Source: Aspidapion aeneum (Eukaryota > Arthropoda > Insecta > Coleoptera > Brentidae). From it: a DNA stretch of 64,000 bases. The stretch spans positions 28,681,351 to 28,745,350 of the forward strand of contig OY755047.1 of the NCBI GenBank assembly GCA_963576565.1, given 5' to 3'. How positions within the stretch are numbered: position 1 is the first letter of the stretch; each line of letters opens with the position of its first letter. The notes under the pieces were generated by a model. It saw only the letters and a list, made by a program, of their open reading frames with translations, was not told the DNA's origin and searched no databases. This document shows positions 36,264-54,442 of the stretch, piece by piece. The translations under genes and the position numbers were made by a program.

Positions 36264-37214
36264 GGTCTAATTACCCCTATCCCTATTATTACTATTATTT
36301 ACTTCCTTGTGTTTATTTATTATTTAGAACCAGGACCAGTACGCAACCCAACTAGAAAACCCCTAATCAATTATCCCCAAACACCCCTATACACGCCGCG
36401 AGCCACTGATTTTACACTTGCAAGGCTTGCTTTTGGATAAAATCTTCAGTTTTCTTCACCATCAGGTATTTATGTTAATAAGAGCCGTTGACAACTATGA
36501 CAATATGTAATTAGTAACTTTTAGGTAAAAAGGCTGTGGCTGTAAATTTTGTTAAATTTATATCCATGTGTTACAAAAAAAACTCCCAAAAATGATTTAT
36601 TTCAAAACCGATTTGATTGCATTGTCTTCTTCTTGTTTTGTCCAGTTTCCGGCCCCCTTTTGCTGTCATCATCCTATTATAATATGTAAAAGATGACCAC
36701 AGTGGTCAATAAAAACTTAACAAGTTGAGTGAGTTTCTGCGTCGGTACAGTCCTTCTTCTATTGTGACCTTTCTGCAGCCAGTTCTTCCATATTTAGGTA
36801 TTCTTGGCCTTAAATTCTCCTGAAAGTCATCTACATATCTCTCTCTTAGCTAGCCACACATACCATGTAGCAAAAAGCTATATTGGCTATAGGGAACACT
36901 GCTGAGAAAAAGAAAAACTAATTTAGCAGGTTTTCAGAAACATAAGTGTTTACCCCGATCTCAGCTAATCCCGGCCGGCGGGCGGTCCGAGAACAAACGA
37001 GCACGCGTTACGACATCGATATTGTATTTTCTTTTAAACCTGTGTAGTAGACAATGCATTAATTCATTCGACTCGGTATGCAGGCGGAGCAAGAATCGCA
37101 AAGGGATCAAAAGAATTTCCTTCTATCTCGTATATCTAAACACCCGCCAAATTTCTAGTTTTTCTCTTTTTAAGCAGGCTTTTCCATAGCCAGTATAGCT
37201 TTTTCCTACATGAT
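36264..37214. other. Non-coding flank of the Polinton
   Basis: No gene. A GC-rich patch lies at 36970-37020 (GGCCGGCGGGCGG). Nothing here continues into the right flank except the 6-bp target duplication. Confidence 0.5.
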
Positions 37215-37220
37215 ATTATT
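37215..37220. repeat. Polinton target site duplication, left
   Basis: ATTATT, directly before the element end AGTAGTGTAG. The identical six bases follow the right end at 37437+17000, that is 54437-54442. Six bases is the usual Polinton duplication length. Confidence 0.95.
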
Positions 37221-37570
37221 AGTAGTGTAGTAGTGGAGGTTCTATATATATTGGTAACATGCCATCCAGTTCTGTCTGTCTGTATGTCTGTCTGTCTGTT
37301 GCTGAAGAAGTGAACTTGGTATGACCTTGGGACTAAAAGAAGTGTGTAAGAAGTTGTGAGCAATGACGTAACAACCAGAGGCTGTTGAAAGGCCCTATTG
37401 GTCAATGAGTTAGGTGCCAATGCGCGACTAGGTAAAATGGTGTGTTTTTTTAGTTTGAGCTTCACTAGGTTAAGGCGTCTAGGTAAGTCTTAATGTGAAA
37501 AAGGCCTTAGGTAATTGTTGGTTAAAAAATAAAATAATTTCTAAAAATATTTGTTAAAATTAATCGGGAT
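37221..37570 (+). repeat. Polinton terminal inverted repeat, left
   Basis: 350 bp, from AGTAGTGTAGTAGTGG to ATTAATCGGGAT. It contains a GTCT tetranucleotide run (about 37280-37300). It differs from the right copy at only a few places, for example around 37434 and 37475 and in an A/T run near 37527. A 27-bp piece (37521-37547) is repeated just inside at 37592-37618. Confidence 0.95.
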
Positions 37571-37825
37571 AGCCTGTTATTTTCTCTGTGTGTTAAAAAA
37601 TAAAATAATTTCTAAAAAAATGATTGCACGAGTATCTTGTTGGATAACCTTAGTGACCCCACACATGTTCTTATTTTATCTCATTAGCAAAAATATGATG
37701 CAACTTTTATAATAATTTTGTATACTGGGAGATGTTTATAGTTTATAGTAAGCATTTTTGATTGATATGATACATTTTTTCAAAATAAATTTTATATAAA
37801 ATGAGTCAAAAAAGAGGATAGGGTA

Positions 37826-38501
37826 TCAAAGAAAAGCAATAAGTGATTTATTAAATAATATTTGGTAAGTCTTTTTATTAAAATAAAAATTAGTCAAACT
37901 TGATGTTATAATTATATTTCTGTTGAAAAATTCTGCATGCCAATTTTCTTGTTTCTGGGTATTTGATTGCAGATCCAATAAACAAAATTTGCATATCCGA
38001 AAGTTGTTTGGTACTTGTGCACGACACAGGATACATGTCTTTTGGATCTGAAAAAATAAGAAAATATACTTCAAATATTTTATTTTTAATTTATTTAATT
38101 TTAAACATATATTAACGAGGAGAAGGAGATATTTGCTCATAGCAAAATAGGTCTTGTTCACCTCTTACTGTGTAATATTTTTCTATGTTCTTATGATGTT
38201 CAATTGATTTCTTGCAAAAACAAAACATTTGCTTACAACTAGAACAAAGCCTAGTGCCAATATTGCAATGTGAATAGTTTTGACAGAAACAAACGTTTCT
38301 TTTACAGTAAACACATACATTTTTACTACTACTACTGCTATCCATCTGGTCCAGAAATCCAAGTTGCTTGGTTGTCACACATTCTGCAGTCTTTTTTATG
38401 TTATTTTTCTTCTGCCATCCTTGTGGTGATGTTTTATTTGTAGCTTGATAAATTTCTAGGTTGTCTTTTTCTGTTTTTTGATGTGATGATTTCTTGTTCA
38501 T
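37826..38501 (-). CDS. Cys-rich zinc-ribbon protein (spliced), unknown role
   Basis: Two coding exons, 38169-38501 and 37826-38047, joined across a 121-bp intron with a GTAAGA donor and TTTTTTCAG acceptor in phase 0. The product is about 184 residues. The start ATG at 38501 (ACAATGAAC) lies downstream of a further acceptor (TATTTCAG at 38526). A GTAAGT donor at 38627 suggests a 5' UTR intron. Exon 1 ends in a Cys cluster with CVYCKRNVCFC and CSSCKQMFCFC. Exon 2 adds CILCRAQ and CKFCLLDL. The five or so CxxC pairs suggest structural zinc ribbons that may bind nucleic acid or protein. I do not recognise the family. Reading exon 1 through into the intron would add only a short tail and lose the last two CxxC pairs. 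Confidence 0.7.
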
Positions 38502-38714
38502 TGTGGTGGTGGTATCTCGGTTAGACTGAAATAACAATTAAAAGGTAAGTATAATTTTTTTACAGATTTTTTATTTATCATTTTTTTTCTTCTAGGTGTT
38601 AATTTTTTTTTTAGGTTGTTTACTTACCTAGTTTAATGAGTTCCTAGACACACAGTGTCCGATGTCTGAACAAGTTGAGAGGATTCTGTAGACTAGTTTA
38701 AATTTAAGATTTAT

Positions 38715-41700
38715 TTAAGTTATTGGATAGCCCCATGGTGCTGTGTTGGTGGAGTGGGGTAATAGTTGACGTTTATCGTCAAAAGGACTTAAAGCAATCT
38801 TTTTTTGTTTGATTGTGTACACTTCGTGTTTGTGAGATCGGATCATGGTTTGAGAGATATCTGTGATTTTATTTTTAAAAAGGCACTCAAGATAGTCATT
38901 AAATGTAATTTTTCTAAGTGAAGCCTTTTTTACACCCTTTGCCCTTTTACTAATATTTAAATTTAAACATTGTTCCTGAACCTCTGTTAATGAAAGACCT
39001 TTCTGCTCAAGTTTAGTTTGAAGATTTTGCAAATCGCTCTTATTTTCCAAAATCTTCACACTATACATTTTAGACCGTAATCCTACAAACTCTGTCATTA
39101 TAGCACCATTATTTTCATCTTTCATGAGCCCCAAAACTTTTTTATTTTTTAATGGCATGTTAAAAATATTGTCTCGTGGGTAGTCAGATGTGTCAAATTT
39201 GTCAATGTCAGTTTTCATATGTTTGTATATATCATCAACATGTAGGTTATAAATTAAACTGTCTGTATCCGTATATAGCAAAAGGGCTTTATCTCCAAAG
39301 TTCGTTTTAATATAGTTATAGTGAAATTCATAAAGAAAAGTTTTTGACAAGTCCAAAATTGTAAATCCTACATATATGGGCTTATTGAAAATAATGTTGT
39401 TTCTAGACATTTCAATAATAACCATATCTTTATCAAATATGGTTAAACTATGAAAAGTAGGTTTTGAAATATAGAATTGCGCACCAAAACGACCCGACCA
39501 TCGAGTTACCAACTTAACATCCTTATATTTTCGAACATTCTCCATAGTCTTGCCAAATACTGAATTAATCATCAATTTGTAAAAGTTTTTCTCAAATTCA
39601 TTTTTACTTTGCTGACGCATATGGATGTTTAATTCAATATAGGGTTTCAACCATTGAGACTGTTTAAATTTAAGGACTCTATGAATTTTTCTAATTTTTA
39701 AACCCAAACCAAGGACCTGTTTTAAGTTACGATAATGGATGATATATCGCTCTTTATTGTAAAGTGTAGTCATCAGTTTGGGTAGCTTACTTTTTGAGTT
39801 GGGTGGCACTCGATGTTCAGGGCAGACAGGAAGGTCTTTATGTATTTCAAATAGGTTAGCAGGGTATGAAATGTCTGCTTCAAAAATGTACCCTATGGGA
39901 CTATCATCTGAAATATTACATATATCCTCCTCAGTGAATGAATTGTTATGAACCCATTCAAAACCACCATAGGGCAATGGTAGAGTCATAGCTGTGCCAT
40001 AAAGTGAATTAACATCATAGTACATTAAATATGATGTTTCCTTATTGGGGTTGTATGACTCTCCCATGTACCTATTGTTGGCTTTGGCATATCTGTTTGA
40101 ACACTGTGAAACTCCACCTCTTATACCTCTTTCTATAAACATGATTATATCAACATCAGTCAAAAGTTGTAGCTCTATTTTACACTGTTTAAGCATGGCT
40201 GAAAAGGCCAATCCTGGACTGGTAAAATAATGAAGCGGATCAAGTTTATAGGTGGAGAGACAGATGTCACGGAACGAGCTCATTATTTCAGATAACAAAA
40301 TTACATCAATTTTCATGTAAAAAAGCGCATATTCCAAAAGCGAATTAATATTAAAGGTATTCCAAATTGTTTGTGCCCTTTTGTATTCATCATTTGAAAC
40401 ACCTTTTCCTTCCAAAGTACTATAAAATGCGTCTTTAGGAGGAAGAACAGTTTCATATAGCTTTTCCCAAGAATCGAGATACTCATAGGGCAGGACACCC
40501 TTACGAGTAACTAAATTAAATTTTTCCTCTTCCTTGTAAAAACTTTTTAAAATTGTCTTTTTGGAATCATCTAAATATGAAGCTAGTTTGTCCAACGCGG
40601 AAGGCATAAACCGAAAAGAATCAATAAAACGAAAATTTACTTTGGTGCCTTCAATGTATTTAGTAAACGAAATATATTTTTCCTTGTTTACAGGGAGAAG
40701 TTGAATTCTACCCTCTACCTCCTTTGCTAAAGATTTTATAAGGAAATGGCTATCATAACCAGAAAGGTTGTGGAATACTACAGGAACACTGTGTGAATCA
40801 TTAAAATTTAAATTACAACCCGGATGAGCTGCTCCCCTATATTTTCCCGTCAAGTGACAATGATCTAAATGTTTTCTGTCTCCCTCTTGAAAAGCCTTCT
40901 CACAGATATGACAATGGGTTGCATTATTAAAATCAAACTTTTCCAGTGTGTTTAACGGTTTTAAAGGAACAATATTTGAAAAAATGTTACTCAACTTTTC
41001 TGCTATTCTTTTCAGCTCATGAGTAAAACGTGAAATGCAATCATTTCCTACAATTTGATGATAATAGGAGAGCGAGTTATCATATGAACATTTCACATAA
41101 TACCCAATCGCAAAAGGAATATGGTGTTGAATTCTTTGTGTATTCGATGGTGATGATGCACTTTTATCATCGTTGTCAATTTTTTCCAACAAACTTTCTA
41201 AATCAGCAAAAATTGTAAAAGGCACTTGCTCTTTATTTTTAAATTCTGTAAATTTCAAAATGTCGTCATTTTTCTTTGGTAGAGTTAGTTTGGTAAAATT
41301 TAAATTTTTACAATCTAAATAATGCTTTTGCAGCACTGCCTCAGAAACAAACCAATTTAAACATCTGTCACATACCCATTTTTTATGATTTTGTCTACCC
41401 ACCTGACTTGATATAAGACGTGAAATATTTTTTATTAGGGCAAAGTGATAGATCCTTTTATTGGGTTGGAGAATTTCAAAATCTTCAGAATCTATATGCA
41501 TCTCATTTTCACTATCAACTACATCATCATCATCACCACACGATAAAATAAGTAAATTAATTCGTTTGGAAAAATCTGATTTGCTTAAACAGATAGGTAG
41601 GATTTCATTCTTTTCAACTCCAAAAACATTTATTGATAAATTATTAAGTTTCTCAAATTTTGAAATGTCTTTTAGTCGTATAGGAAATTCCAAACCTTCA

Positions 41701-42569
41701 TAATTCAGTCCCACCTGACTAAAATGAGGGTACGAGTAAGTTATATTGCTATTATGAGCAGCAGGGTGTAAAGCAGCCACAATAGACCAAAGAAAACAAT
41801 AATTATCTTTATTTTGAATATTGATCACCCCCTTGGTGTTTTTAATCCACTGCGGTGACTCAACATAAGTTGAATCACCACAGTTGATTGGGGTGTGTTT
41901 ATTAATATTAACCTTAAGATGGAGAATTTCATACAGAGCCCAACCAGAATCTCGCTCTTGAAAATCCTCCATCTTGGTTAATATTTTTTGAGAAACATTT
42001 TCCTCATACCATTTTTTTAAATTTGTTGTTTGGTCTATTATACTGTTTCTCGTAGAAAAAGCCTTCACATCAGTTTGCGTAGTACCTTCATGTAATTTAA
42101 TAAAATTCCCCGAAAAAATGACATTAACTTTTAAAATTGAATGTTTAAGTGACTTTTTAATTTGACTTGAAAAACTCTTGAATGCCTTTTTAAAGAAAAT
42201 CTTAGGGTCTTTAATGGTAAAATTAGTGATAATACCTGTTGTAATTCTACCACCAAAGCACGTTTCAACATCTTCCCAAACCAAATTTTTTTTGACCGAC
42301 CTCACCCTATTAGTTTTGCCAAAATGAATTCTTTTTTTATTTTTTAGTAATATTAAATAATGTTTTAAAAGTGCCAAATTCGATTCTAATTTAGAAAAGT
42401 TTTGTACACAATCAAGTTTATTTTTTACAGAACTTTTTACGGTTGAAATTAAATTTAGAAGAAAAACTATCCAATAATTAAATTCCTCTCTTGTTTTCAC
42501 CAGTCTACTCACCTGTTCAACCTTTTTTACAGACTCAGACACCAACACATCAAAACTTTGGGAACTCAT
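38715..42569 (-). CDS. Protein-primed family B DNA polymerase (Polinton pPolB)
   Basis: 1284 residues from the ATG at 42569 (GAAAAAATGAGT); numbering here counts 14 extra codons upstream. The 3'-5' exonuclease shows FADLE (470/472), [10 protein letters not shown] (620) and YMKID (769). The polymerase shows motif [10 protein letters not shown] (866), motif [11 protein letters not shown] (about 1012) and motif C YTDTDS (1114/1116). Between the exonuclease motifs sits a zinc/HNH-like insert (Cys567, Cys570, HLDHCH, Cys599). Upstream is a C2H2-like finger (Cys414, Cys417, His430, Cys434). Before that lies a 120-residue region with DNYCFLW (Cys272) and YHFALIK (His389). The enzyme copies the element's DNA from a protein primer. 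AATAAA overlaps the stop. It is long for the family because of the N-terminal part. No break is seen. Confidence 0.97.
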
Positions 42570-43763
42570 TTTTTCTATAATATTCAACTGTGCAAGATAT
42601 GTTATGAACAACGGTCTTTGTCAGAATGAATTCATACGTTGTCAAAATATAATTAAATATTGGTTTGATAAGAAAGTTCTTCTTGAATACGAGGGAAATT
42701 TTTTAAGTAACAAATGTAAGAAAGCATAGCACATGTTGCCAGATTCACAATAACCTAACTTTTTTAACAGTTGGATGGTATTGATTGTGCATAGAATTGC
42801 TGTCAAAAGTGTCAAAAAGACATTTGAGTTTAGTTTTAAACGCTTGGAATTTAGTTTGCAAAACTTTTCATTTTCACTTGTATAGTTAAAGCCTGGAAAA
42901 TTCCATAACAAACACATGACTGACGTATGATTTAATACAATGTAACCAACGCCACTAGTCTGTAAAAATGAACCTTTTTTTTATTCAAATCAAAACATAA
43001 TGTTTAGTAAATTTTATAAAAATGTATTATTTAGCAAAAATGTGTTTTTTATATTTAAACTAAAATATATTGGTCAGCACTTTTTAGGTGTAGTCATAGG
43101 CGACGCTACTTTAATATTGTATATATATTTAATTAATTTAAACCAACAAAAATAATTTGACTGCTTTAAAAGTCACGTGATATGTCAAAATAGTAAAATA
43201 TGACAGTTTGTAACCTAAAATTCAATATATTAGGGACTTATTGTAATAAAGCTTAGATTTATTAGTGTCTGTCTTTATTTAAAAAAAAAACAAATGACTA
43301 TATTTTTCAATTCGACTTTAGTATGTCAATTTTGAGAGATCAGTTGTTAGTTTTCTATATAATACTGTCACAATACGACCAAGCAGTATTAAATCCATTT
43401 ATTGTAATAAGTCCCTATTACAGACCGATTCATCATTTTTGAAACAACTTTTGACAGTTATCAGCTGTTTCCCATAACAAATAGCATAGGCCAACAAAAA
43501 ACTTGCAAAAAGTTGTACTAAAATGTAAAGGATGCAGCTAGTCTATAGAAGTATCGCTGTCATCTTGGTTATAAGAAAAACTATCTCCCCACACCAAAAT
43601 TTTAACTAATGATACGCCTATGGATAAGTGAAAACATGGTTTAGATAAGTGGCCAAAGTAGTGCTATGTCAGCTAAAAATTGGTTATATATACCAAAAAT
43701 TTTGAACTAGAAATCATCTGAAACAGTTTATTAACATATAATAAAAAAAATAATAAAATAAAA
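42570..43763. other. Polinton intergenic gap with divergent promoters
   Basis: 1.2 kb between PolB (leftward) and the spliced gene at 43764 (rightward). It holds the MITE at 43233-43415. A minus-strand 91-codon frame (42642-42917) has one hydrophobic stretch and no recognisable domain. It lies where the PolB 5' leader should be, so I do not call it a gene. Confidence 0.6.
43233..43415. mobile_element. TA-inserting MITE, copy 3 (nested in Polinton)
   Basis: 183 bp. The ends are GGGACTTATTGTAATAAA and its complement, flanked by TA on each side. It holds the family core GTATGTCAATTTTGAGAGATC near 43320. It has jumped into the intergenic gap of the Polinton without touching a coding frame. Confidence 0.85.
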
Positions 43764-44567
43764 ATGGCAAACAAACCATCGACTTTGATTGTGTATTCAT
43801 TAGATCGCATTAACTGTCCACCGAAAATGGTCTATGTGTGTGTAAAGAATTTGTTCAGGTAAGTTTTGTTATTTTTTGTTAAAACTTTAACTTATAAAAA
43901 AAAACAAAAAATATATATTATTTTTTAATATATTTTTTATTTTTTAATATATTTTATATATATACGGTTTTTTTTGTTAAGAGATTTGTTGTTTTTTAAT
44001 AAACTTCAGAAGAGATTTATTTTTGATACATTTTGATATAGGTAGTTTTATAACAAATTTTTTTAAATATTTTAAAGTTAACAGGACCTATTATTTTATA
44101 TTATGCTTTTGATGTGCTTTTATTTTACTTATTATATTAGGTTATTAATTTTTTTTATTGTTCTTGCTTTCAGCTATGGAGTGGAACGAATCGAAATGAA
44201 GGGAGAAAAAGTATTTGTGAAGTTGTCATACACCTCAAAACAGGAGACATTAATTCAAAAGTTTGCTAGATTGCCTGTGAAATTCTATAAGATACAGGCA
44301 GATGATGAGGAGGAGTATTTATTATTAGAACAGGCAAGCAAAAAATATGGGATAAATTTACATCAGGATGGGTCTGAAACCATGCTTCCTCCTCCTCCGC
44401 CGCCTGTTGCAGCAGCTGTTGGGAAGAAGATGACTTCACCTAGAAGAAAAAGAGCGATGGCGACCACATCATCATCATCATCATCCATCAATGAGATGGA
44501 TATATTATCACAGGCGATTTCATTGGTGGATGATGATGTTCACTTTGAGGAGTCACAAAAGTGGTAA
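43764..44567 (+). CDS. Spliced small Polinton protein, unknown role
   Basis: Exon 1 is 43764-43858, from AAAATGGCAAAC to the donor CAG|GTAAGT. Exon 2 is 44174-44567, after TTGCTTTCAG. The 315-bp intron splits a codon after its second base and the joined frame is open, giving about 162 residues. The first 85 residues look globular, with VKLSYTSKQETLIQKFARLP and DDEEEYLLLEQASKKYGI. A linker of seven prolines, a basic patch (SPRRKR) and a serine run follow, then an acidic tail. An unspliced frame from 44103 would read intron sequence as a hydrophobic leader, which I consider misleading. AATAAA repeats at 44604-44622 serve this gene and possibly the convergent one. Family not recognised. Confidence 0.75.
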
Positions 44568-44625
44568 TTTTAGTTAGAGTATTAGTTAAAGGATGTATAA
44601 TATAAATAAATAAATAAATAAAGGG

Positions 44626-45120
44626 TTAAAACTGAATATGCTTTTTATTTAAATACCATCTATTTAACAAAATTACATTTTCTCTAGCACAATTTAAATA
44701 ATTATTATTATGCATTTCACAGTGAAACTTATCATTACAATAATTTTTTAATTTTTTAATATTGGGACATCCCAAGTCATATAAATCTACAACATTATTA
44801 TTAACTAAATTACATAACCAAACTTTTTTTTCATTTCCTTTTACAAACACAGTTTCATTTTGAATTAAATCCTTAATAAATAAAGCGAGGTTTTCAAATG
44901 GTAAATAACTAAAATCAAAAGTGTCCCAATTTATACCATGAAGTTTGTTTGTATTCCATTCAGCTTGATGTTTAAAGTCTTGATGTAACCAGATGGACTT
45001 CATAGGTAAATTAACGATATGGTGCCGAACTTCATTAGTATGGGTGTTTAATATAGCTATTTCCTTACATATAAATTCAGTGTCTTTGTACTGGAAACCT
45101 TGCACATCCAAAATAAACAT
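44626..45120 (-). CDS. Conserved-looking Polinton protein, unknown role (164 aa)
   Basis: Starts MFILDVQGFQ and contains FICKEIAIL, WNTNKLHGINWDTF, ETVFVKGNEKKVWL, LGCPNIKKL and a final Cys/His group (CNDKFHCEMH, NCAREN). The acidic residue in the first strand (LDVQG) and the HGINW and KG motifs recall a nuclease-like fold, but I cannot show this. It reminds me of small proteins often found beside the capsid gene in insect Polintons. It begins 10 bases after the capsid stop in the same direction, so the two may be co-expressed. It converges with the spliced gene at 44567. Confidence 0.8.
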   Translation of the reverse strand: MFILDVQGFQYKDTEFICKEIAILNTHTNEVRHHIVNLPMKSIWLHQDFKHQAEWNTNKLHGINWDTFDFSYLPFENLALFIKDLIQNETVFVKGNEKKVWLCNLVNNNVVDLYDLGCPNIKKLKNYCNDKFHCEMHNNNYLNCARENVILLNRWYLNKKHIQF

Positions 45121-45130
45121 TTTTTTTTCT

Positions 45131-46354
45131 TTAAACTACCCTTACGGTACTGGTTAGAGGGTTGTATTTCACAAGTCGATCGTGCAATATTAAACAGTAG
45201 GCTATAGTTTTATCAGGTACAGCTTTTTTCGTTTCAAACTCAATTCTAATGTCAACTGCACCACCTTTGAGCACGTCTTCACTCTGTCGAGAGCAGTCGA
45301 TAACTACCAGTGGAGCATCATTTTTAAAGCTTATCGGGTGAAAGCAAGGTTCGCTTTGATCGTGGTAATAATAGGATTTTTGAAACTGGGCATACATTTC
45401 ATATAGAATAGCATACTGATTGTTATCAAAATCCAAATTTAAGTTATCATATGGAAAAACTTCAGAGTTTAAATAAACTTTTAGGTTCGTTAATGATAAG
45501 TGGTCAAAACGGCTCATATTTTTACTAAACAAGTTTTTTCTATCTGTCTGAAATCCAATAATAATGAAACGTGGTGTCTCCAGTTGATTTGAAGTTTTCA
45601 CTGCCCATGTGTGATTAGTTGTAGTTTGAAGTTGTGGATACTCATGCAATTCCCAACTTCGAAAACTAATATTGAGATCTCTGTTACCCTCTAAATACTT
45701 GTAAAGGCGCAATTTTTCATCATCTGACACTCTAACATGTGGAATTTTCCAATGAACTTTATTTAACACCACCTTATATTTTTCTTTTTTATCCTCAGTT
45801 TCAATTAAAGCGTTTAAATCGGAATTGCTGCGAATCAACACAAGTTCTTGTCGTACATTTAAAATAATCTTGTGATGGTCCTCAAATACCCCCATAAGGG
45901 TTTTTAGGGGTAAACATATATTGAAATTACCGGAACCATCTAATATAGGTGGATTTTCTTTAAGTGTCCAACCAGCATTTTGAAGGGTGTTACCATCACT
46001 TTCCTTGAATGAGCAGTAACCTTTTATTGTTGATGTAATCCCAGGATTTCTAACACGGTCCACAATCACCCCTCCTAACTCATAACGAATTTCATCAAAT
46101 AAATGTGCTAAACCATTGTTTGCAAAGTGCACATTAGTGCTGGCAGTATTGTCATCTTTCAGTACTTTTCCTTCAAGGTAAAGAACACTTTGACTAGGCA
46201 GGGTATAGATGTCTTGAGTTTGTATCGGAATTCGAATTTCATCATTGTTGTTTAAGGTGGTTGAAGCATATGGTTGATGAGTGTGTAGTTGGTAACTCAC
46301 AATCGAATTATCATAGAGCACGTTTTCACCCACTCTTAGAATGTTACGACTCAT
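45131..46354 (-). CDS. Major capsid protein, double jelly-roll (Polinton MCP)
   Basis: 407 residues from the ATG at 46354 (AAAAAAATGAGT). It is all beta in appearance. It has the typical early HLFDEIRYELGGVIVDRVRN stretch, a mid WKIPHVRVSDDEKLRLYKYL and a late PLVVIDCSRQSEDVLKGGAVDIRIEFE run that ends in the second jelly roll. Size and order fit Polinton major capsid proteins, which form hexon-like trimers of an icosahedral shell. It lies in a leftward late block with penton, protease and core genes. No break is seen. Assignment rests on pattern memory, not on a search. Confidence 0.88.
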   Translation of the reverse strand: MSRNILRVGENVLYDNSIVSYQLHTHQPYASTTLNNNDEIRIPIQTQDIYTLPSQSVLYLEGKVLKDDNTASTNVHFANNGLAHLFDEIRYELGGVIVDRVRNPGITSTIKGYCSFKESDGNTLQNAGWTLKENPPILDGSGNFNICLPLKTLMGVFEDHHKIILNVRQELVLIRSNSDLNALIETEDKKEKYKVVLNKVHWKIPHVRVSDDEKLRLYKYLEGNRDLNISFRSWELHEYPQLQTTTNHTWAVKTSNQLETPRFIIIGFQTDRKNLFSKNMSRFDHLSLTNLKVYLNSEVFPYDNLNLDFDNNQYAILYEMYAQFQKSYYYHDQSEPCFHPISFKNDAPLVVIDCSRQSEDVLKGGAVDIRIEFETKKAVPDKTIAYCLILHDRLVKYNPLTSTVRVV

Positions 46355-46471
46355 TTTTTTCAAAACACTTTAAACTACACCACACTGAAAAAAATATTCT
46401 TCTTATACCACAACTGACACGTACTTTTAAATTATACCAAAATTTCCTAAGTCTTTTGCCTATGATGGTAG

Positions 46472-46666
46472 TTATTGTCCTTTTAGTTTAAATCCTAAAT
46501 ATACTAAAAAAGCTCTATTTTCAGGTGTTAGCTCTTTGACTAGCTGTTTATTACTAAATGGTTGTACACTATCAATCTTCTTCTTATAAATTTTATTACT
46601 TTCCTCTAAGGCGGTAATTTCTTCATAAGGAATACCAAAAGTATTATAATTATACAAAAACACCAT
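46472..46666 (-). CDS. Small Polinton protein between capsid genes (64 aa)
   Basis: Starts MVFLYNYNTFGIPYEEITAL and ends LTPENRAFLVYLGFKLKGQ. The ATG has A at -3. It begins 3 bases after the stop of the minor capsid gene and lies in the same direction. The LTPENRAFL..LG end recalls short proteins encoded next to penton genes in other Polintons. Role unknown; a virion component is a fair guess from position. Confidence 0.7.
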   Translation of the reverse strand: MVFLYNYNTFGIPYEEITALEESNKIYKKKIDSVQPFSNKQLVKELTPENRAFLVYLGFKLKGQ

Positions 46667-46668
46667 TT

Positions 46669-47367
46669 TTAAACGGATTTTTTTAGATGCAGTCTAATCG
46701 TGACCACTTCTCCACGAAAATTGATGGGTTTTCCATCTTGGTCAGTTATTTTAAGTAAAATATCATCAATATAATGAGTGCTGATTGGTAGATATATCAC
46801 ATTTGAGGGTCTTTCTATAATTTTATAACCTGGAGGAGAAGAGGGGTAAAACATGTGTAACATGTGCACTGCTTTTCCGTTATTATAAGAGTTTATAACC
46901 AAGTTGCACTCAACACATATAGCATTCACTTTTAATATATCAACCGGATTTTCAGATATATGTTTTTTATCGGCCTCTAGAGTTTTTCCTGCAAATCCTA
47001 GTAAACTTCCAATGGAATTTTCCTTTTCAAAATTAATCTTTTTATTGCATATAACCTCACACTGTAAGGTATTATGGTTAGCTGTTATACTTATTTCAAA
47101 TTGTTCCTCCTTTAAAGTTTGCTTTGAGTATTTATTTAGGAAATCGTTCAAGTCCTTAATTTCGTATGACCCCTCAGGTATTTTTATAATTTTATCATCA
47201 TTAAAACAAAATAAATTATTTGAACTATCCACATTCGGTATTGAGTTGTAACTTTCGAAATTAATGAGCCCCAAATCATATTGCTCAAGCTCGTTTAGCA
47301 CTATAGGTGGATAGATGTTTGCTGAAAGGAGTGATGATTTTCCGGATAAGGTAAAGGTGTAGGACAT
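46669..47367 (-). CDS. Minor capsid protein, penton-like single jelly-roll
   Basis: 232 residues from the ATG at 47367 (GTAAACATGTCC), preferred over an ATG 39 bases upstream with poor context. It has a beta-rich N-terminal FTLSGKSSLLSANIYPPI. The middle holds EGSYEIKDLNDFLN and the conserved-looking SIGSLLGF. A strong C-terminal block, GEVVTIRLHLKK, is typical of Polinton and adintovirus penton proteins. It would form the vertices of the capsid. The neighbours are the protease upstream and the capsid downstream. Confidence 0.85.
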   Translation of the reverse strand: MSYTFTLSGKSSLLSANIYPPIVLNELEQYDLGLINFESYNSIPNVDSSNNLFCFNDDKIIKIPEGSYEIKDLNDFLNKYSKQTLKEEQFEISITANHNTLQCEVICNKKINFEKENSIGSLLGFAGKTLEADKKHISENPVDILKVNAICVECNLVINSYNNGKAVHMLHMFYPSSPPGYKIIERPSNVIYLPISTHYIDDILLKITDQDGKPINFRGEVVTIRLHLKKSV

Positions 47368-47428
47368 GTTTACTATATAGCGGTTCACTGATAAATGAAA
47401 AACCATATAGTTTAGTAGACGTTTTTTA

Positions 47429-47845
47429 TTAACCCTTAAAGTAATACAAAAAACTTAAACACAAGTGTCCACAATTTACAGAATCATAAGTCTGGTAGGG
47501 GTTATAATTATACAGTACTTTTGAGTCACCATTAGAACTAAAGTATCTTACAGATTCTATAGGAGGTCGTAAATTACCAAAACTATCAAAATAGTGTACA
47601 TTATTTTTAATTTTCTTATAACAAGTCCAATGACTTCCTGATCCTCTGCTACTATCTAAATTAATTATCCCCGACTCAAATTTATGTATCTTTGAGGGTA
47701 GTTCATCTCTCATAAACACACCTCTAAAATGTTTAATTTTTAACAGCTTTGTATACTTTTTCAGGTCAATATTTGTAAGAGCTCGCTGTGGTAGTGAAAT
47801 CGGTAAAGTTTTCTTGAAAAACTTTAGGTTTTTGTTTTTTGACAT
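47429..47845 (-). CDS. Adenain-like cysteine protease
   Basis: 138 residues. The triad and oxyanion residues of adenovirus-type maturation proteases are visible: His72 in GSGSHWTCY, Asp87 in YFDSFG, Gln118, and Cys125 in NCGHLCLSFL. It is shorter than adenovirus protease, as is usual in Polintons. It is expected to cleave capsid or core precursors during maturation. Its start overlaps the end of the core-like gene by 22 bases in another frame. Confidence 0.93.
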   Translation of the reverse strand: MSKNKNLKFFKKTLPISLPQRALTNIDLKKYTKLLKIKHFRGVFMRDELPSKIHKFESGIINLDSSRGSGSHWTCYKKIKNNVHYFDSFGNLRPPIESVRYFSSNGDSKVLYNYNPYQTYDSVNCGHLCLSFLYYFKG

Positions 47846-48324
47846 CCACCTTTGTGTAAAAAAAGACCCATTCCTAGTTTATATGGTTTGAGAAATAATC
47901 CTTTACCCATAGCAATGGACTCCATACTTTGGTTATGTCGTTGAGCCTCTTGCAATTGTTGATTTGCAGATTTAGCAGCATTAATGGCTTTCACTATTCC
48001 CGCTGTGCCACTCCCTAAAGCACCAAGGGCAGAGAGGGTCGCCATGATTGGTATTAGAGGCAAAAAACCACCCTTTTTTGGTAGTTTTATTATTCGTGCA
48101 GGTCGTACTTTTCCTTTGTTTTTTTCTGCTGTCTTGAGAGCAACTTTGACTGCAGTTTCAATGTCTTGTGGTTTTCGTTGTTTTAATCTATCTTTTATCT
48201 TTTTTGTTGCTTGACTGAAACTCAATGTTTTGATTTTTTTCTTTACAATTCGTGCCCTCTTTCTTTTAAAAGTTGATGTTTTTCTACTTTTTATGGGTTT
48301 TCTTGATTTTCTCGTTTTACTCAT
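47824..48324 (-). CDS. Basic core-like virion protein
   Basis: 166 residues. The first 50 are very rich in Lys/Arg (TRKSRKPIKSRK, KRKRARIVKKKIK). Then comes a KKGGFLPLIPI hydrophobic segment with an Ala/Gly-rich SALGALGSG part (about 85-110), a short helix rich in Ala and Gln, and GKGLFLKPYKLGMGLFL. Basic tail plus hydrophobic GGFLPLIP recalls adenovirus protein X/mu and similar Polinton proteins. It could condense DNA or act on membranes. The protease gene overlaps its 3' end, so the protein is a likely substrate. Confidence 0.75.
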   Translation of the reverse strand: MSKTRKSRKPIKSRKTSTFKRKRARIVKKKIKTLSFSQATKKIKDRLKQRKPQDIETAVKVALKTAEKNKGKVRPARIIKLPKKGGFLPLIPIMATLSALGALGSGTAGIVKAINAAKSANQQLQEAQRHNQSMESIAMGKGLFLKPYKLGMGLFLHKGGCQKTKT

Positions 48325-48405
48325 TTTTTAAGAATGATGTTACTACCTTGAAAGTTTACACAAGAATGAAAGCAACTGATATGTGTGTTTGAAGGTGTTT
48401 AAGAT

Positions 48406-49287
48406 TTATATAACTTTTGGTTTTTTAATGTTGCTATGCATATTTTCATTTTCTTCACCATCAATGCTTAGTCTCCGCTTTAGTGACTTCTGCTCCAATG
48501 GTCCTTCACTCAAAACAGCAGCTGTGTCGGTTTTTGGTAATTTAAAGGGAACATCAACCGAATCGCTTAACTTTCTCTTTCGTTTGACTTTTAAAAATTT
48601 TGGTAATTTAAAAGGAATATCCACCGAGTCGCTTAACTTTCTCTTTCTTTTGACTCTTAACAATATTGGTTCTTTATGTAAAGGGGGTGAATTAGTTTCC
48701 ATAGCTTCTGTTTCAGGTTCATCTTTTTTTACTTTTTTTAACCGTGGTTTTCTTGGTTTAGATGATGATGATTTTCTCGTTGTTTGTGATGGATTTTTAA
48801 TTTGACCCTCTAGAGTTTCAAGAGAGCCTAAATAATTTTTTGTCATCTTTATCCCACGTTGAATCATATTTAGGCACTGACGCACTGCCTTTAAACGTGG
48901 CACTTGATCAGTTTTTGATACATTATTTACCATACCCATCCCTAGTTTTAGCTTGGTACCCATAGCAGCAGCCACACCAGAAGCAGCCAGTTTTTCATAC
49001 AAGCCTGAATCCGTTGCTCGCATCCGTTCTAAAGCTTTTCTCATTAAAACTTTATCTGCCTCATGACGGTCGGTCAACTCCATATTAGTTGAATAGGAAA
49101 TGTCATGATCTTTGCATGCTCTATCAAGCTGGTTAATACCTTTATCCCCTCTAGCTAAACGTTTCTCTAGCTTGGTCCCAGGTCCACAATAAGAAAACCC
49201 TGGGATATGCATTTCGAAGGGCAGATTATTTATAGCACTGTTTAACAACCCTTGCCCTTTAACGTTTGAACTAACATAGTACTTCAT
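48406..49287 (-). CDS. PLA2-domain virion protein
   Basis: 293 residues. The N-terminal 110 residues form a phospholipase A2-like domain of the parvovirus VP1 type. It has the calcium loop YCGPG (33-37) and the active site KDHDISY (His61-Asp62, Tyr65), so both catalytic residues are present. In viruses this domain breaches endosomal membranes. The C-terminal half is basic. It contains two near-identical 22-residue units, VKRKRKLSDSVD then PFKLPK (about residues 212-255), which look like nuclear localisation signals. A minus-strand TATAAAAAA box (about 49330-49340) lies in the 97-bp divergent gap shared with the ATPase gene. Confidence 0.9.
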   Translation of the reverse strand: MKYYVSSNVKGQGLLNSAINNLPFEMHIPGFSYCGPGTKLEKRLARGDKGINQLDRACKDHDISYSTNMELTDRHEADKVLMRKALERMRATDSGLYEKLAASGVAAAMGTKLKLGMGMVNNVSKTDQVPRLKAVRQCLNMIQRGIKMTKNYLGSLETLEGQIKNPSQTTRKSSSSKPRKPRLKKVKKDEPETEAMETNSPPLHKEPILLRVKRKRKLSDSVDIPFKLPKFLKVKRKRKLSDSVDVPFKLPKTDTAAVLSEGPLEQKSLKRRLSIDGEENENMHSNIKKPKVI

Positions 49288-49329
49288 AGCGTTTCACTTA
49301 AGACTAAATAAAAACCAGGGTCTTTACTT

Positions 49330-49340
49330 TTTTTATACAT
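49330..49340 (-). promoter_or_regulatory. TATA box for PLA2 gene
   Basis: TATAAAAAA read on the minus strand, about 45-50 bases before the PLA2 ATG. It sits in the short divergent region that also serves the ATPase gene at 49385. Confidence 0.55.
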
Positions 49341-49384
49341 TACCAGTTCAACAGTGTTAAGTTGACATAATATTTCTATAGAAA

Positions 49385-50068
49385 ATGAAAAAGATTGTTA
49401 AACAAAAAGTGCGTTTAGAAGTTAAAAACCATGATATTAATGCAAGTACTACATCAAGACATGGTTTCCTGTTTCCATCATCTATTAGATGTCTTATCGT
49501 GGGCCCATCAAACTGTGGAAAAACCAACCTTATATTGAGCCTTTTGGAACATTCAAACGGTTTAAAGTTTAAAAATGTGTATGTGTATTCAAAAAGTCTA
49601 TACCAGCCAAAGTATTTATATTTAGAGAATCTATTAAAACCCATTAAAGAAATAGGGTACTATGCTTACAACAGTGGCGAAAATATAATTCCTCCATCAG
49701 AAGCAAATCCGTTTTCCATTTTCATATTTGATGACGTAGCCTGCGATAAACAAGATGTGATGCGTGACTACTTTAGTATGGGTCGACATAATAATATTGA
49801 CAGTTTTTATCTCTCTCAAACATATGCAAAAATACCTAAACATTTAATAAGAGACAATGCCAACGTTTTAATTTTATTCAAACAAGATTTACTAAATGTA
49901 AAACATATATACACCAACCATATTGGCACTGATATGACATTTGATGAATTTCAAAAGATGTGTGCATTTTGCTGGAAAAAACCGTATGATTTTTTGACAA
50001 TTTTTAAAGATTGTGATATTGATAAGGGAAGATATAGGTATCGTTTTGATAACTTTATATATCTTTAG
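49385..50068 (+). CDS. FtsK/A32-like DNA packaging ATPase
   Basis: 227 residues. Walker A is GPSNCGKTN (40-48), Walker B is FSIFIFDDVA (Asp116/Asp117), and the later SQTYAKIPKHLIRDNAN (Gln145, Arg156) carries the sensor and arginine-finger-like part. This is the A32/adintovirus-type packaging motor that pumps element DNA into the capsid. It heads the rightward block with DUF8207 and integrase, 60 bases apart. Confidence 0.93.
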   Translation: MKKIVKQKVRLEVKNHDINASTTSRHGFLFPSSIRCLIVGPSNCGKTNLILSLLEHSNGLKFKNVYVYSKSLYQPKYLYLENLLKPIKEIGYYAYNSGENIIPPSEANPFSIFIFDDVACDKQDVMRDYFSMGRHNNIDSFYLSQTYAKIPKHLIRDNANVLILFKQDLLNVKHIYTNHIGTDMTFDEFQKMCAFCWKKPYDFLTIFKDCDIDKGRYRYRFDNFIYL

Positions 50069-50128
50069 ATTCAAATACTGCTTAGTGTTAATAGTTTTAA
50101 CACACTTGTAGAGATAACATAGATAAAA

Positions 50129-51346
50129 ATGTCAGAAGAAAACATAAAAATTGTTAGTGGTGAAAAGAACTTAAAGAAACAATTAATTTCTAAAAGAAAA
50201 ATAATACGTGAGAAATTAAATTTGTTAAAACAGGGTCAGATTTCACAGGCTAACCTATTTCAACCCATTACAAAACACTTGGAAAATATTGAATCTAGTT
50301 TAACCGATAAAAAGCCTCCGAAACTGGTCAATATACCTTCATTATCACCCACTCCTCAAAAAATCAAGCAAGAAAACGAAAAACAACAACAAGAAAAACA
50401 GGAAGAACTTGAAGATCTGCAAACTTCATCGCTTTTTCATAAGAATTTTGATAATAACAGTGCAGAAGAAGATGAAAAACATATGCATGAACCAAGTGTT
50501 TACATGCAAGACTTATTCCAGTCAACTCCTCGAAACCCAAATCCTACAACACCGACAACCGAGAAGAGAGCTAAACGAAAATTAAATTTTTCTTTAAGTG
50601 CTAAAAAACTAAATAAGCCCACCACAAGTGGTTACTTTTTGAGAAAAGCAGTATTAAAAGATGCAGCAGAGAACTTTACACAGAATGAGGCCAAAAAGCA
50701 AGAAGAGTTTGAAAACGGACGACTTAGAGACTTGATGAATAAATCTGAGAATGACTACTACAGTCAGTTTCATCCTTCACTTGCAAGCTATATTAAAGAA
50801 TTTTTAGATGATCCATCCACCGTGCCTTCTGACCCACAAAATTATTTTTCCAAGTTTCGTGTAAGGCGAGATGATATTGACAATTTTTATATTGGTGATT
50901 CGAAAATTGATTTTGATGGAGCTGATTTAATTATAAAAGGTAAACGCTATAAAGGTACACACGGTTTGTACAAATTACTCTTTCGAAAAAATATGCCTAC
51001 AAAGTATACCCAAGATGATGCAGACGCTTTTAGAGACATCATTGAACACACCTATGCAAACAGAAAACATCATAAGGCCTCTGGAGATGTGATCACTGAT
51101 AGCTACTCAACCAAATTTAAGAAACTGTTTAGTGACATATATAAAGGTGGAAATCTAGAGGAGGAGATGGAGTACTCCGATAGTCCTATAGAGTACGTGT
51201 ACTGGGATAATCCCAATGAACTTGTAGAACGGTTACGTTTATTATTAGCATCTCAGACAGCTGGCAACACAGGTCACACAAACGAAATCTATGCTATAGT
51301 TGAGGAGCTTCAAGAAGCTAATATTATTGAGAAGAGAGATGGTTAA
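50129..51346 (+). CDS. DUF8207-like Polinton protein
   Basis: 405 residues. The N-terminal half is charged and Gln/Glu-rich (coiled coil likely at about 75-110) with a TPTTEKRAKRKLNF basic patch. The C-terminal 200 residues hold the conserved-looking YVYWDNPNELVERLRLLLAS, then AGNTGHTNEIYAIVEELQEA. I associate this pattern with the DUF8207 family of insect Polinton proteins, whose role is not known. The stop lies inside ATGGTTAA, where the integrase ATG begins, so the two frames overlap by 8 bases. Confidence 0.8.
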   Translation: MSEENIKIVSGEKNLKKQLISKRKIIREKLNLLKQGQISQANLFQPITKHLENIESSLTDKKPPKLVNIPSLSPTPQKIKQENEKQQQEKQEELEDLQTSSLFHKNFDNNSAEEDEKHMHEPSVYMQDLFQSTPRNPNPTTPTTEKRAKRKLNFSLSAKKLNKPTTSGYFLRKAVLKDAAENFTQNEAKKQEEFENGRLRDLMNKSENDYYSQFHPSLASYIKEFLDDPSTVPSDPQNYFSKFRVRRDDIDNFYIGDSKIDFDGADLIIKGKRYKGTHGLYKLLFRKNMPTKYTQDDADAFRDIIEHTYANRKHHKASGDVITDSYSTKFKKLFSDIYKGGNLEEEMEYSDSPIEYVYWDNPNELVERLRLLLASQTAGNTGHTNEIYAIVEELQEANIIEKRDG

Positions 51347-52274
51347 TAATTTTATTACAGATGTTAAACGAGAAGTAGTTAGTGAAATACACAAACCGGC
51401 TAGAATTAATTTTTTAAGGCGCAGAGTGATTGTGAAATCACTAAATGATCTATTTCAAGCAGATCTTGTGGAGATGATACCGTACGCAAACGAAAACAAA
51501 GGTTTTAAATACATTTTAGTGGTTATTAACTGTTTCTCGAAATATGTTTGGGCCTATCCATTAAAAACAAAAACTGGAGAAGAAGTGTCGAAAGCTATAG
51601 AAAAAGTGTTTAAGGAACAGGTGCCACTTCATCTTCAAACCGATCATGGGAAAGAGTTTTACAATTCGACTATGACAAAACTGTTGAAAAGATACAATGT
51701 CAAACACTATAGTTCATTTAGTGAAAAAAAGGCTCAAATTGTTGAGAGGGTAAACCGTACCCTTAAAAACCTAATGTGGAAGGAATTTAACTATCAAGGA
51801 TCTTACAAATGGTATGATATACTTCCGAAAATTGTTCGAATTTATAACAATCGGAAACATCGAACTATAGGGATGAAACCCTCAGAGGTGCGAAAAAGAC
51901 ATGAAAAACTACTGCTCAAAACGGTTTATAACCATATAAAGATGACATTTAAACCAAAATACAAGGTTGGTGACCATGTTCGCATTTCAAAACTACGAGG
52001 TGTGTTTGATAAGAAATACATGCCAAATTGGTCTACTGAAATTTTTACTGTTAAGAAAATTCAGCTCACCAACCCAGTAACATACCTATTGGAGGATGCT
52101 AGTAAAAATGAAATTAAGGGAGGATTCTATGAACTTCAGCTGCAAAAAGTAAAATATTCTGATATATATTTAGTAGAAAAAGTTTTGAAACGTGCCAAAA
52201 ATAAGGTGTTTGTAAAGTGGTTAGGATTTGATAATAAACATAATAGCTGGATAGATAAAAGTAATGTTGCTTAG
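51339..52274 (+). CDS. rve integrase with C-terminal chromodomain
   Basis: 311 residues from the ATG at 51339. The catalytic triad is Asp42 (FQADLVEM), Asp102 (LQTDHGKEF) and Glu136 (AQIVERVNRTLK). The C-terminal region has an SH3-like KYKVGDHVRISK and a chromodomain (YLVEKVLKRA, VKWLGFDNKHNSWI). No N-terminal HHCC zinc module is visible, as in many insect Polinton integrases. The enzyme joins the terminal repeats to the target and makes the 6-bp duplication. An AATAAA follows at 52282. Confidence 0.95.
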   Translation: MVNNFITDVKREVVSEIHKPARINFLRRRVIVKSLNDLFQADLVEMIPYANENKGFKYILVVINCFSKYVWAYPLKTKTGEEVSKAIEKVFKEQVPLHLQTDHGKEFYNSTMTKLLKRYNVKHYSSFSEKKAQIVERVNRTLKNLMWKEFNYQGSYKWYDILPKIVRIYNNRKHRTIGMKPSEVRKRHEKLLLKTVYNHIKMTFKPKYKVGDHVRISKLRGVFDKKYMPNWSTEIFTVKKIQLTNPVTYLLEDASKNEIKGGFYELQLQKVKYSDIYLVEKVLKRAKNKVFVKWLGFDNKHNSWIDKSNVA

Positions 52275-52404
52275 TACTAAATAAAGAAAAACATATAAAA
52301 CTTATTGGTGTATTTTATTTACTAATTTTCTTAAAATATAATTACATTTAGAATAAATATTTAATGGGAACAACCATCCTCTAATTATAGCAGTTACTAA
52401 ATAA

Positions 52405-52929
52405 CTAAAATGAGCCACCCATTGATGATATTCTAAAATTTGATGGGTTGTTATACAGCTTTGAAGTACCATTTAACTGTTTCTTCCCATTTCGAATATT
52501 AGTTGACTCTTCCATTTGCTCCTCTTCATAAATTCTCCCCTCTTCGGGTTTAATATGTTTTTGACGCATCTCTTCAAAAAACTCTGGAGAGAGATGTGTT
52601 TGATACTTTAATAAGTATTCCCAGTCGATGCGCCATTCATTTTCTCTTATAAAATTTTCAGACATCCGTTGATAACGACAAAGAAAAGGCCAATAGAGTT
52701 CGCTTTTAAACATATGCATAAAAGCTTCGCTTAAATTTTGATATCTAGACACATTGGGCCAATGCATCTTATTAATATAGGTCGCCATAAACATATCAGA
52801 TAATCTTTGTTTGCGACAAATTACTTCCCAGTTCACATGGTCACAAAACCATCCAATAAAGTCCTCTGTAATAACTGGTGACGCAGAGATCTCATCCCAC
52901 ACTTTATTAATACTATTATTTTCAACCAT
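52405..52929 (-). CDS. Repeat protein with 23-residue period
   Basis: 174 residues from the ATG at 52929 (AAAGATGGTT); the open frame extends 12 codons upstream without an ATG. Trp11, Trp34, Trp57, Trp80 and Trp103 are exactly 23 residues apart. So are Gln41, 64, 87 and 110 and Phe24, 47, 70, 93 and 116. The unit is roughly W-x6-Q-x-[LMH]-S-x2-F. This is a small alpha-solenoid-like array of the type seen in large DNA viruses. A TATAAATA motif lies about 50-60 bases upstream on the minus strand. The tail is acidic, then Asn/Gly-rich. Function unknown; a protein-binding scaffold is plausible. Confidence 0.8.
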   Translation of the reverse strand: MVENNSINKVWDEISASPVITEDFIGWFCDHVNWEVICRKQRLSDMFMATYINKMHWPNVSRYQNLSEAFMHMFKSELYWPFLCRYQRMSENFIRENEWRIDWEYLLKYQTHLSPEFFEEMRQKHIKPEEGRIYEEEQMEESTNIRNGKKQLNGTSKLYNNPSNFRISSMGGSF

Positions 52930-53027
52930 CTTTAAAAGCGTTCTTTCTGAAAGTAAGAGTTTCAACTTATAAATCCCCCTATTTATAGGTTGAAGTAAAA
53001 GTAACCTTTGACCTTTGATACTTCTTT

Positions 53028-53201
53028 TTAACCACGATAGCCTTGTTGAATATATTTCTTAACTTCTTCGTTTTTCTTCTGTTCACAAGAACTGTGTTTT
53101 GTTACAATCCAATCAGCAGGTCGATGTGGATTTCCTTTGGTACAATAGATGCAACGGGGTTTTTTTATTCTTGGTTTAATCCACTCATAGGTTGGTAACA
53201 T
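53028..53201 (-). CDS. Small zinc-finger-like protein (57 aa)
   Basis: A short open frame, MLPTYEWIKPRIKKPRC onward, with Cys pairs CIYC and a later HSSC. It ends in a charged helix (EQKKNEEVKKYIQQG). Basic and Cys/His-rich, it may bind one zinc. It lies between the repeat protein and the divergent zinc-ribbon gene at 53389, all closely packed, which supports a real gene. Family not recognised. Confidence 0.55.
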   Translation of the reverse strand: MLPTYEWIKPRIKKPRCIYCTKGNPHRPADWIVTKHSSCEQKKNEEVKKYIQQGYRG

Positions 53202-53261
53202 TGTATTTGGTTGACTTCAAAAAACACCAAGTTTTGCTGATCTACACTGTTCAACGGTTGA

Positions 53262-53290
53262 CTATAAAATAACCAACGCAGTAAGTTCAA
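53262..53290 (+). promoter_or_regulatory. TATA box and possible initiator for 53389 gene
   Basis: TATAAAATAA from 53263 and a GCAGTAAG initiator-like motif about 25 bases later. The arrangement suits an arthropod RNA polymerase II core promoter. The transcript would carry the 53389 frame and possibly the 53600 frame. Confidence 0.5.
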
Positions 53291-53388
53291 TCGTTTTAGC
53301 ATAGATGAAATAATCCTTTATCTACATCTACAGTTTTAGATAAATCAGTTTTTCTGTGTCTGTCGTAGCGATAGGTTGTGCGTGTGAA

Positions 53389-53598
53389 ATGAGAAAATGT
53401 TCTCAACCACCATCAATTTATCATAATTTTCGCTGTGATAAATGTGGAAGAGTAGACATAGTTAAAATAAGCACAGGCAACAAAATTTCTTCATATTTGT
53501 GTGATATTTGTAGAAATACAAGTCCAGGAAAAAACCAAGGAAATATTTTCCGAAATACAACAACGAGACGTGGTAAATTAAAATTTAGAACACAGTAA
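53389..53598 (+). CDS. Small zinc-ribbon protein (69 aa)
   Basis: Start at ATG 53389 (GAAATGAGA). Two Cys pairs (CDKCGRV and CDICRN) 26 residues apart form a likely zinc ribbon. They are followed by a basic tail (TTRRGKLKFR). The next frame starts one base after its stop. It may bind nucleic acid. Family not recognised. Confidence 0.6.
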   Translation: MRKCSQPPSIYHNFRCDKCGRVDIVKISTGNKISSYLCDICRNTSPGKNQGNIFRNTTTRRGKLKFRTQ

Positions 53599-53599
53599 G

Positions 53600-53920
53600 A
53601 TGGACTTTCAATATAATTATTGGTCAACTAAAATTGACTTTGAACTAGAAGAACTTTTAGAAGAGAAAAGTTATGAAAATTTTTATAAATGGTTAGCAGA
53701 ATGGATATATTTTGGGTTTGAGTCGTGCAGATACATCATTGAGGAAAAACTACCAACATTATACCCATTATTACCTACAATATGGAAACGTAAATTAACA
53801 GAGGCAGCGCTGGAATATACGAAAATTTATCCAAACTATAACGCGAAAAAACATCTTCAATCAATTATTTTTAAATTTGATGGTCGAGATGAGTGTGGTT
53901 TATATGATATATATGAATAA
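53600..53920 (+). CDS. Small Polinton protein (106 aa), unknown role
   Basis: ATG at 53600 right after the stop of the zinc-ribbon gene. It is rich in aromatic and acidic residues (FELEELLEEKSYENFYKWL, YDIYE at the end) and probably helical. No known motif. AATAAA overlaps its stop at 53917-53922. It is the last gene before the right terminal repeat. Confidence 0.6.
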   Translation: MDFQYNYWSTKIDFELEELLEEKSYENFYKWLAEWIYFGFESCRYIIEEKLPTLYPLLPTIWKRKLTEAALEYTKIYPNYNAKKHLQSIIFKFDGRDECGLYDIYE

Positions 53921-54084
53921 AAATATATAATTAAAACATACTTTGAGTTTTTTATTTTAGCATTATTTACTTTGAGACATCCTGTACAGCATAAGTAACC
54001 AGCTGTATTAGATAAAACAGGAACGTGTGTGGGTCATAAGGTTATACTATAACTGCATAAACAATGATAAGAGATACACAGACA

Positions 54085-54436
54085 ATCCCGATTAATTTTA
54101 ACAAATATTTTTAGAAATTATTTTTTTTTTTTAACCAACAATTACCTAAGGCCTTTTTCACATTAAGACTTACCTAGACCAGGCTAACCTAGTGAAGCTC
54201 AAACTAAAAAAACACACCATTTTACCTACTCGCGCATTGGCACCTAACTCATTGACCAATAGGGCCTTTCAACAGCCTCTGGTTGTTACGTCATTGCTCA
54301 CAACTTCTTACACACTTCTTTTAGTCCCAAGGTCATACCAAGTTCACTTCTTCAGCAACAGACAGACAGACATACAGACAGACAGAACTGGATGGCATGT
54401 TACCAATATATATAGAACCTCCACTACTACACTACT
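54085..54436 (-). repeat. Polinton terminal inverted repeat, right
   Basis: 352 bp. Read on the minus strand it starts AGTAGTGTAGTAGTGG and ends ATTAATCGGGAT, like the left copy. Differences are few: GCGAGTAGG for GCGACTAGG, a four- to five-base change in CTAGGTTAGCCTGG, and a longer A run. Open frames of about 80 codons in both repeats read out into the flanks and are by-products of the repeat. Confidence 0.95.
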
Positions 54437-54442
54437 ATTATT
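54437..54442. repeat. Polinton target site duplication, right
   Basis: ATTATT, identical to 37215-37220. Confidence 0.95.

Follow-up and report, generated by a model that had tools for sequence, protein, structure and literature searches.

The beetle Aspidapion aeneum (Brentidae) carries, in a 64,000-nucleotide (nt) stretch of assembly GCA_963576565.1 (contig OY755047.1, 28,681,351 to 28,745,350; hereafter the window, in whose coordinates its features are given), an intact-looking copy of an insect Polinton of adintovirus-like affinity at 37221-54436. The explanation that best accommodates the evidence, and which we consider probable, is that this copy belongs to a family that has very recently multiplied by being copied off the chromosome as linear double-stranded DNA, replicated, packaged and reinserted. 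In such a cycle, a protein-primed polymerase would replicate the linear DNA from end to end, the element's own capsid proteins would package it, and its integrase would insert it at new sites with the creation of a 6-base-pair (bp) duplication. The genome presents matching ends with 6-bp duplications that differ at each site checked, copies that are nearly identical, fewer replacement changes than expected in the variants that copies share, fold-back derivatives with the same duplication size and an apparently non-coding family with closely similar ends and similar length.

The window element is bounded by terminal inverted repeats (TIRs) of about 360 bp (37221-37580, plus strand; 54078-54436, minus strand) and flanked by a perfect duplication of ATTATT (37215-37220 and 54437-54442). 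Its open genes include those typical of Polinton/Maverick elements: a family B DNA polymerase (PolB), of the organellar/viral type in a profile search and with an embedded endonuclease-VII-like stretch (38715-42611, minus); an RVE integrase with a chromodomain-like tail, the tail scoring below cut-off (51339-52274, plus); an A32-type ATPase whose Pox_A32 match points to a packaging role (49385-50068, plus); a double-jelly-roll major capsid protein (MCP; 45131-46363, minus); and a penton, or minor capsid, protein with a predicted penton fold (46669-47406, minus). An adenain-like cysteine protease gene is likewise open (47429-47845, minus); the catalytic residues that a preliminary description had assigned to it are recognizable by eye as a triad, but its Pfam match, at E 0.068, falls below the cut-off. 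The same description had proposed a Polinton at these positions, and the repeats, the duplication and the open core genes bear it out. The TIRs, the 6-bp duplication, a length of about 17 kb and the PolB, integrase, ATPase, protease-like, MCP and penton genes are common to Polinton/Maverick elements and insect adintoviruses. The suggested comparison with adintovirus proteins gave, for the penton, 58% identity with a protein that carries the name 'penton [Bos-associated insect adintovirus 2]', which indicates kinship at the level of protein identity. Among 120 listed relatives of the capsid protein, those with a species name come from what we take to be beetles throughout. Sequence searches of the PDB with the protease and the penton, and scans of PHROG and NCBIfam, added little.

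The genome searched comprises 1.286 Gb in 149 contigs, numbered here with the prefix C, the window lying on C10. A search with the capsid protein, in which 102 loci were scored out of 1244 first-look candidates, found every one of the 102 to be 97-100% identical to the window protein over nearly its full length; 95 were free of internal stops and seven were not, and the top score was common to 15 loci, the window included. The 30 best of the 102 by capsid similarity, again with the window among them, were compared gene by gene. Their DNA is 98.5-100% identical to the window in the capsid gene, 95.7-100% in the penton gene (gaps counted), 99.0-100% in the protease gene and 99.2-100% in an open reading frame (ORF) at 44626-45120 (minus), for which five relatives and no assigned function were found. 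One of these loci, L010, equals the window over four adjacent capsid-side genes, with no difference in 2,883 nt, which places a 95% upper bound of 0.05% per lineage on their divergence; with an insect rate of 2.9e-9 this corresponds to about 0.2 million generations. Because of this identity the family is seen to have multiplied very recently, and the 'recent arrival' of the preliminary description, right as to recency, should rather be read as a burst of a family in recent times, not as the coming of a single copy. TIR differences of the window element were rejected as a clock on these grounds: 12 other coding-type ends, each compared with the window end of the same side, differ from it by 1-4 substitutions and small gaps although the capsid-side genes of the window and L010 are identical, and the outer 120 bp vary far more from copy to copy.

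The ends of these elements are abundant as well. The 30-nt tip of the window element recurs at 115 ends genome-wide with at most three mismatches, as against none for a reversed-pattern control. The 100 of these 115 that were listed form 45 end pairs, 19 of which span 17.1-17.6 kb; longer pairs probably hold nested insertions. Perfect 6-bp duplications flank 24 of the 27 elements checked, window included, and all 24 are different. They were found at all 13 of the end pairs that the first 30 listed tips form, at eight of ten further pairs with right ends at both termini, and at two of three left-left pairs, the tips of the third lying outside the pieces fetched. They reflect separate insertions by one mechanism rather than segmental duplication.

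Alongside the coding family stands a second one that shares its ends. Six of the 13 pairs first checked have in common with the window only the outer ~312 bp of its TIR (5-6 mismatches, 4 gaps); they have an inverted repeat of their own of at least 1.4 kb, and the longest match of their interior to the inner ends of the window element is 59 bp. All six have perfect 6-bp duplications, the same size as those of the coding element. One copy is 13,405 bp long; its sampled halves mirror each other in inverse orientation, with 99.4% identity over 3.65 kb. Sampling covered 10.4 kb of it and revealed a single frame of at least 100 amino acids (aa), which at 107 aa lies within the expectation from shuffled sequence; the 4 kb sampled of a second copy hold none. 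When 16 window proteins were compared by tblastn, the best E values were 0.4 and 0.12 in the first and second copies, respectively, and the sampled interior matched no Rfam family. The family is thus apparently without genes of its own, so far as can be read from these samples. A 30-nt marker for it occurs at 316 ends (at most two mismatches; reversed control, 0), and the first 100 listed form 45 inward pairs, with 10 markers unpaired and only one neighbouring pair within 40 kb in another orientation. With element size taken as marker spacing plus about 1.3 kb, the estimated median among the 45 listed pairs is 16.5 kb, and 33 of them fall within 13-18 kb. Two members at different sites show no mismatch in 1,528 aligned bases and one 2-nt gap; this near-zero divergence implies that the non-coding family has also spread recently. 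A third type, at C3:81733885-81751902, has the same tips; its inverted repeat measures about 1.45 kb, and it matches the right arm of the window element at 94% over 479 bp.

The non-coding family may have been copied and moved in trans by the proteins of coding copies, and its length is suggestive of packaging in helper capsids, such that packaging might influence that length. In the strongest form of this idea, it would be a true Polinton satellite in an animal host: a protein-free genome of linear DNA whose shared ends are copied by the Polinton polymerase, which is packaged at near-full length in the Polinton capsid and inserted by its integrase, and which rivals its helper in numbers. We hold this only tentatively, as something that may well prove otherwise. 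An alternative to which we give similar, tentative weight is that the family began as an old repeat of unrelated origin, which acquired Polinton ends on one occasion, and now spreads as a large, unpackaged, non-autonomous transposon. The lack of resemblance of the sampled interior to any window protein or Rfam family is in keeping with such an origin, as is the existence of related symmetric elements of about 7-10 kb. Against it, unpackaged non-autonomous DNA transposons usually shrink, whereas an estimated 13-18 kb has been kept by 33 of the 45 listed pairs. A strict lower size limit for packaging was considered and rejected once elements of about 7.0 kb and of an estimated 9.3 and 9.8 kb had been found.

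The family might instead have undergone an ordinary transposon burst without virions, with copying and insertion in germ-line nuclei and the capsid genes as passengers or with intracellular roles only. Variants relative to the window were scored in the 30 loci for the capsid, penton, protease and 44626-45120 genes. Those present in more than one locus comprise 22 synonymous and 5 replacement changes, and those in a single locus 19 and 40, respectively (Fisher p 2e-5). Because the loci had been ranked by capsid similarity, the other three genes were also tested without the capsid, and gave 7 synonymous to 2 replacement changes among shared variants versus 11 to 33 among private ones (p 0.005). 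Changes that have been passed on mostly leave the proteins as they were. This would be expected if virion proteins were needed for the family to spread, and it agrees with the report of purifying selection in cyprinid Mavericks (PMC8097293). This scarcity of shared replacements in the penton, protease and 44626-45120 genes, together with the absence of internal stops from the major capsid gene in 95 of the 102 scored loci, speaks against a virion-free burst; in its favour are the chromosomal location of every copy seen and a single scan of viral contigs, for close relatives only, in which no relative was confirmed. On balance we regard a burst of this kind as unlikely.

Two further elements have lost one end and bear in its place an inverted copy of the other. 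The first (C4:61849863-61865102; 15,240 bp), to which locus L010 belongs, is normal on the capsid side, and from the position equivalent to window 43896 continues as an inverted copy of 49782-54436; the polymerase side (37221-43896) is thereby lost and a right end stands at both termini. Comparison of its arms gave 3 differences in 1530 positions and 0 in 1001, while the duplicated arm shows 41 differences and gaps relative to the window over 3,164 bp, so that the element is a mosaic with respect to the window. The second (C5:45609820-45624762; 14,943 bp) is a near-perfect palindrome in which two right halves meet head to head; it is 99.7% self-complementary across 8 kb of the 10 kb sampled, with the turn at a 6-nt inverted microhomology, GGATTT/AAATCC, whose copies were located by eye about 40 nt apart. 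Both are flanked by perfect 6-bp duplications. Such fold-backs may arise by a template switch during strand-displacement copying of linear DNA, and the C4 element, judging from the genes that it lacks, would need a helper to replicate. Among 100 listed right-end markers (0 mismatches, C1-C6), 13 pairs are oriented right-right, and the other two orientations yielded no pair within 25 kb. That right-right pairs derive simply from the coding element was rejected for most of them, in that four of four sampled centres are 89-98% identical to the non-coding family; those proven as fold-backs of the coding element are the two on C4 and C5.

Inverted duplications do occur in chromosomes, and the palindromes and the symmetric non-coding family might have come from these or from gene conversion rather than from the replication of linear DNA; two symmetric elements without a perfect duplication would be consistent with this. 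However, perfect duplications stand at 10 of the 12 right-right elements checked (13 listed), both proven fold-backs included, and at all six non-coding pairs, which implies that the symmetric elements were inserted as symmetric units; the confinement of 33 of the 45 listed symmetric pairs to one size range points the same way, making a chromosomal origin quite improbable. Long palindromes are also a known failure of some long-read data, but an assembly artefact from fold-back reads or collapsed repeats is very hard to credit, given that the palindromes occur at many loci with differing flanks and duplications and that their arms differ by some substitutions and gaps, hardly to be expected of a doubled read.

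The ends themselves bear further marks of exchange. A listed window-type tip (100 of the 115) lies within 12 kb of only 19 of the 102 capsid loci. From seven loci whose capsid-side genes share 99.5-100% identity with the window, 14 end pieces were taken; 12 of them match one of its ends, and the other two, the left ends of C2:92894670 and C5:103724669, match neither. Eight ends were profiled: they diverge by 8-13% in the outer ~120 bp, but scarcely at all in the inner TIR and the sequence next to it. The two tips of an element are mostly alike, yet those of C2:138634758-138649344 differ from each other; flanked by a perfect TACGTT duplication, this element is a possible exchange product. These patterns suggest that terminal sequence may have been exchanged between elements and the two ends then equalised, as would be expected of linear genomes copied from their ends. 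A local contrast is also seen within L027, L028, L029 and L034, where the MCP gene is 98.9-99.0% identical to the window and the neighbouring genes 99.8-100%, a sign of local exchange.

Several observations weigh against the cycle of linear copying, packaging and reinsertion proposed here, in addition to the viral-contig scan already described. Damage to a neighbouring gene is present in three of the 30 loci: the penton gene has a 13-nt gap in L022 and a 32-nt gap in L033, and in L029 the protease gene is unmatched over 102 nt. Right-end markers outnumber left-end markers about two to one genome-wide (323 and 168 at up to two mismatches; reversed controls, 0), and right-right elements explain only part of this excess. 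One right-right pair is without a duplication, and in another the flanks match at five of six positions. The capsid gene taken alone gives 15 synonymous to 3 replacement changes among shared variants versus 8 to 7 among private ones, which is not significant (p 0.13); the selection test drew on the 30 best of 102 loci by capsid similarity, and linked variants may inflate it. Finally, length is no strict limit in the symmetric elements, one being about 7.0 kb and two an estimated 9.3 and 9.8 kb.

The window element has further genes. Left of the polymerase lie two small ORFs on the minus strand, one with a zinc-ribbon similarity below cut-off (37826-38161) and one with no function assigned (38112-38537); the same holds for the function of ORFs at 44103-44567 and 50129-51346 and of two small ones at 53356-53598 (Cys-rich) and 53600-53920, all on the plus strand. 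On the minus strand are a small basic protein with similarity to the adenovirus core protein PX below cut-off (47824-48324), a phospholipase A2 (PLA2)-like protein (48406-49287) and a protein matching PHROG 3532, to which PHROG assigns no function (52405-52965). The PLA2 gene contains a 66-nt tandem repeat (48532-48663), its unit being a multiple of three. Elsewhere in the window, an open frame of 1,773 aa (19502-24823, plus) resembles by eye a BEL/Pao-type retrotransposon polyprotein and is followed by a partial inverted copy of itself (24985-26133, minus). The sequence abutting the left end of the Polinton (36990-37220) is a dispersed repeat, with 63 matches in 40 scored of 952 candidates; these end at or near the insertion point, and some copies have short inverted matches. 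When the window flanks were joined by script and compared with seven loci of this flanking repeat, the matches again ended at or near the insertion point, and no empty site was shown.

Polintons, their capsids and the selection on those capsids are already known. Vertebrate Mavericks are reported to have 6-bp duplications, a length of about 17 kb and genes under purifying selection, with at most 38 intact elements per genome and 96% of copies defective (PMC8097293). The completeness of the window element, which had been called uncommon for genomic copies, would indeed be so by that vertebrate standard, but seemingly not in this genome, where most scored capsid loci lack internal stops and 19 of the 45 listed end pairs measure 17.1-17.6 kb; the description of the element as complete, recent and virus-like is supported. 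The 102 near-identical capsid loci scored here may be set against that maximum of 38, capsid loci being the looser criterion (PMC8097293). The present family also differs from known Polintons in being accompanied by fold-back and non-coding elements, of which a literature search, with most subscription papers outside its reach, found no report either as fold-backs or as genome-length non-coding companions. The C4 and C5 elements share their structure with the snapback defective genomes of adeno-associated virus, symmetric or asymmetric self-complementary molecules built from one virus end (PMC8235507): each has given up one end for a second, inverted copy of the opposite one. In contrast to these, the elements here are chromosomal insertions with target duplications, come from a parent that encodes a family B polymerase and would depend on a helper only by implication. 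MITE-like non-autonomous DNA transposons likewise have only terminal sequence in common with their coding partner and the same duplication size. Their inverted arms measure hundreds of bases, whereas the non-coding family has an estimated median length of 16.5 kb among the listed pairs and, in the sampled copy, inverted arms of several kilobases.

Ever since capsid genes were discovered in animal Polintons, the debate on whether these elements are transposons or viruses has drawn on gene content (PMC4028283). The young copies, the inserted fold-backs and the apparently non-coding partner of similar length add physical traces of how this DNA is copied and moved, and packaging becomes directly testable within one host. 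If the non-coding family is indeed a satellite, this beetle genome would preserve together the helper, the snap-back defective genomes and the satellite of one virus population.

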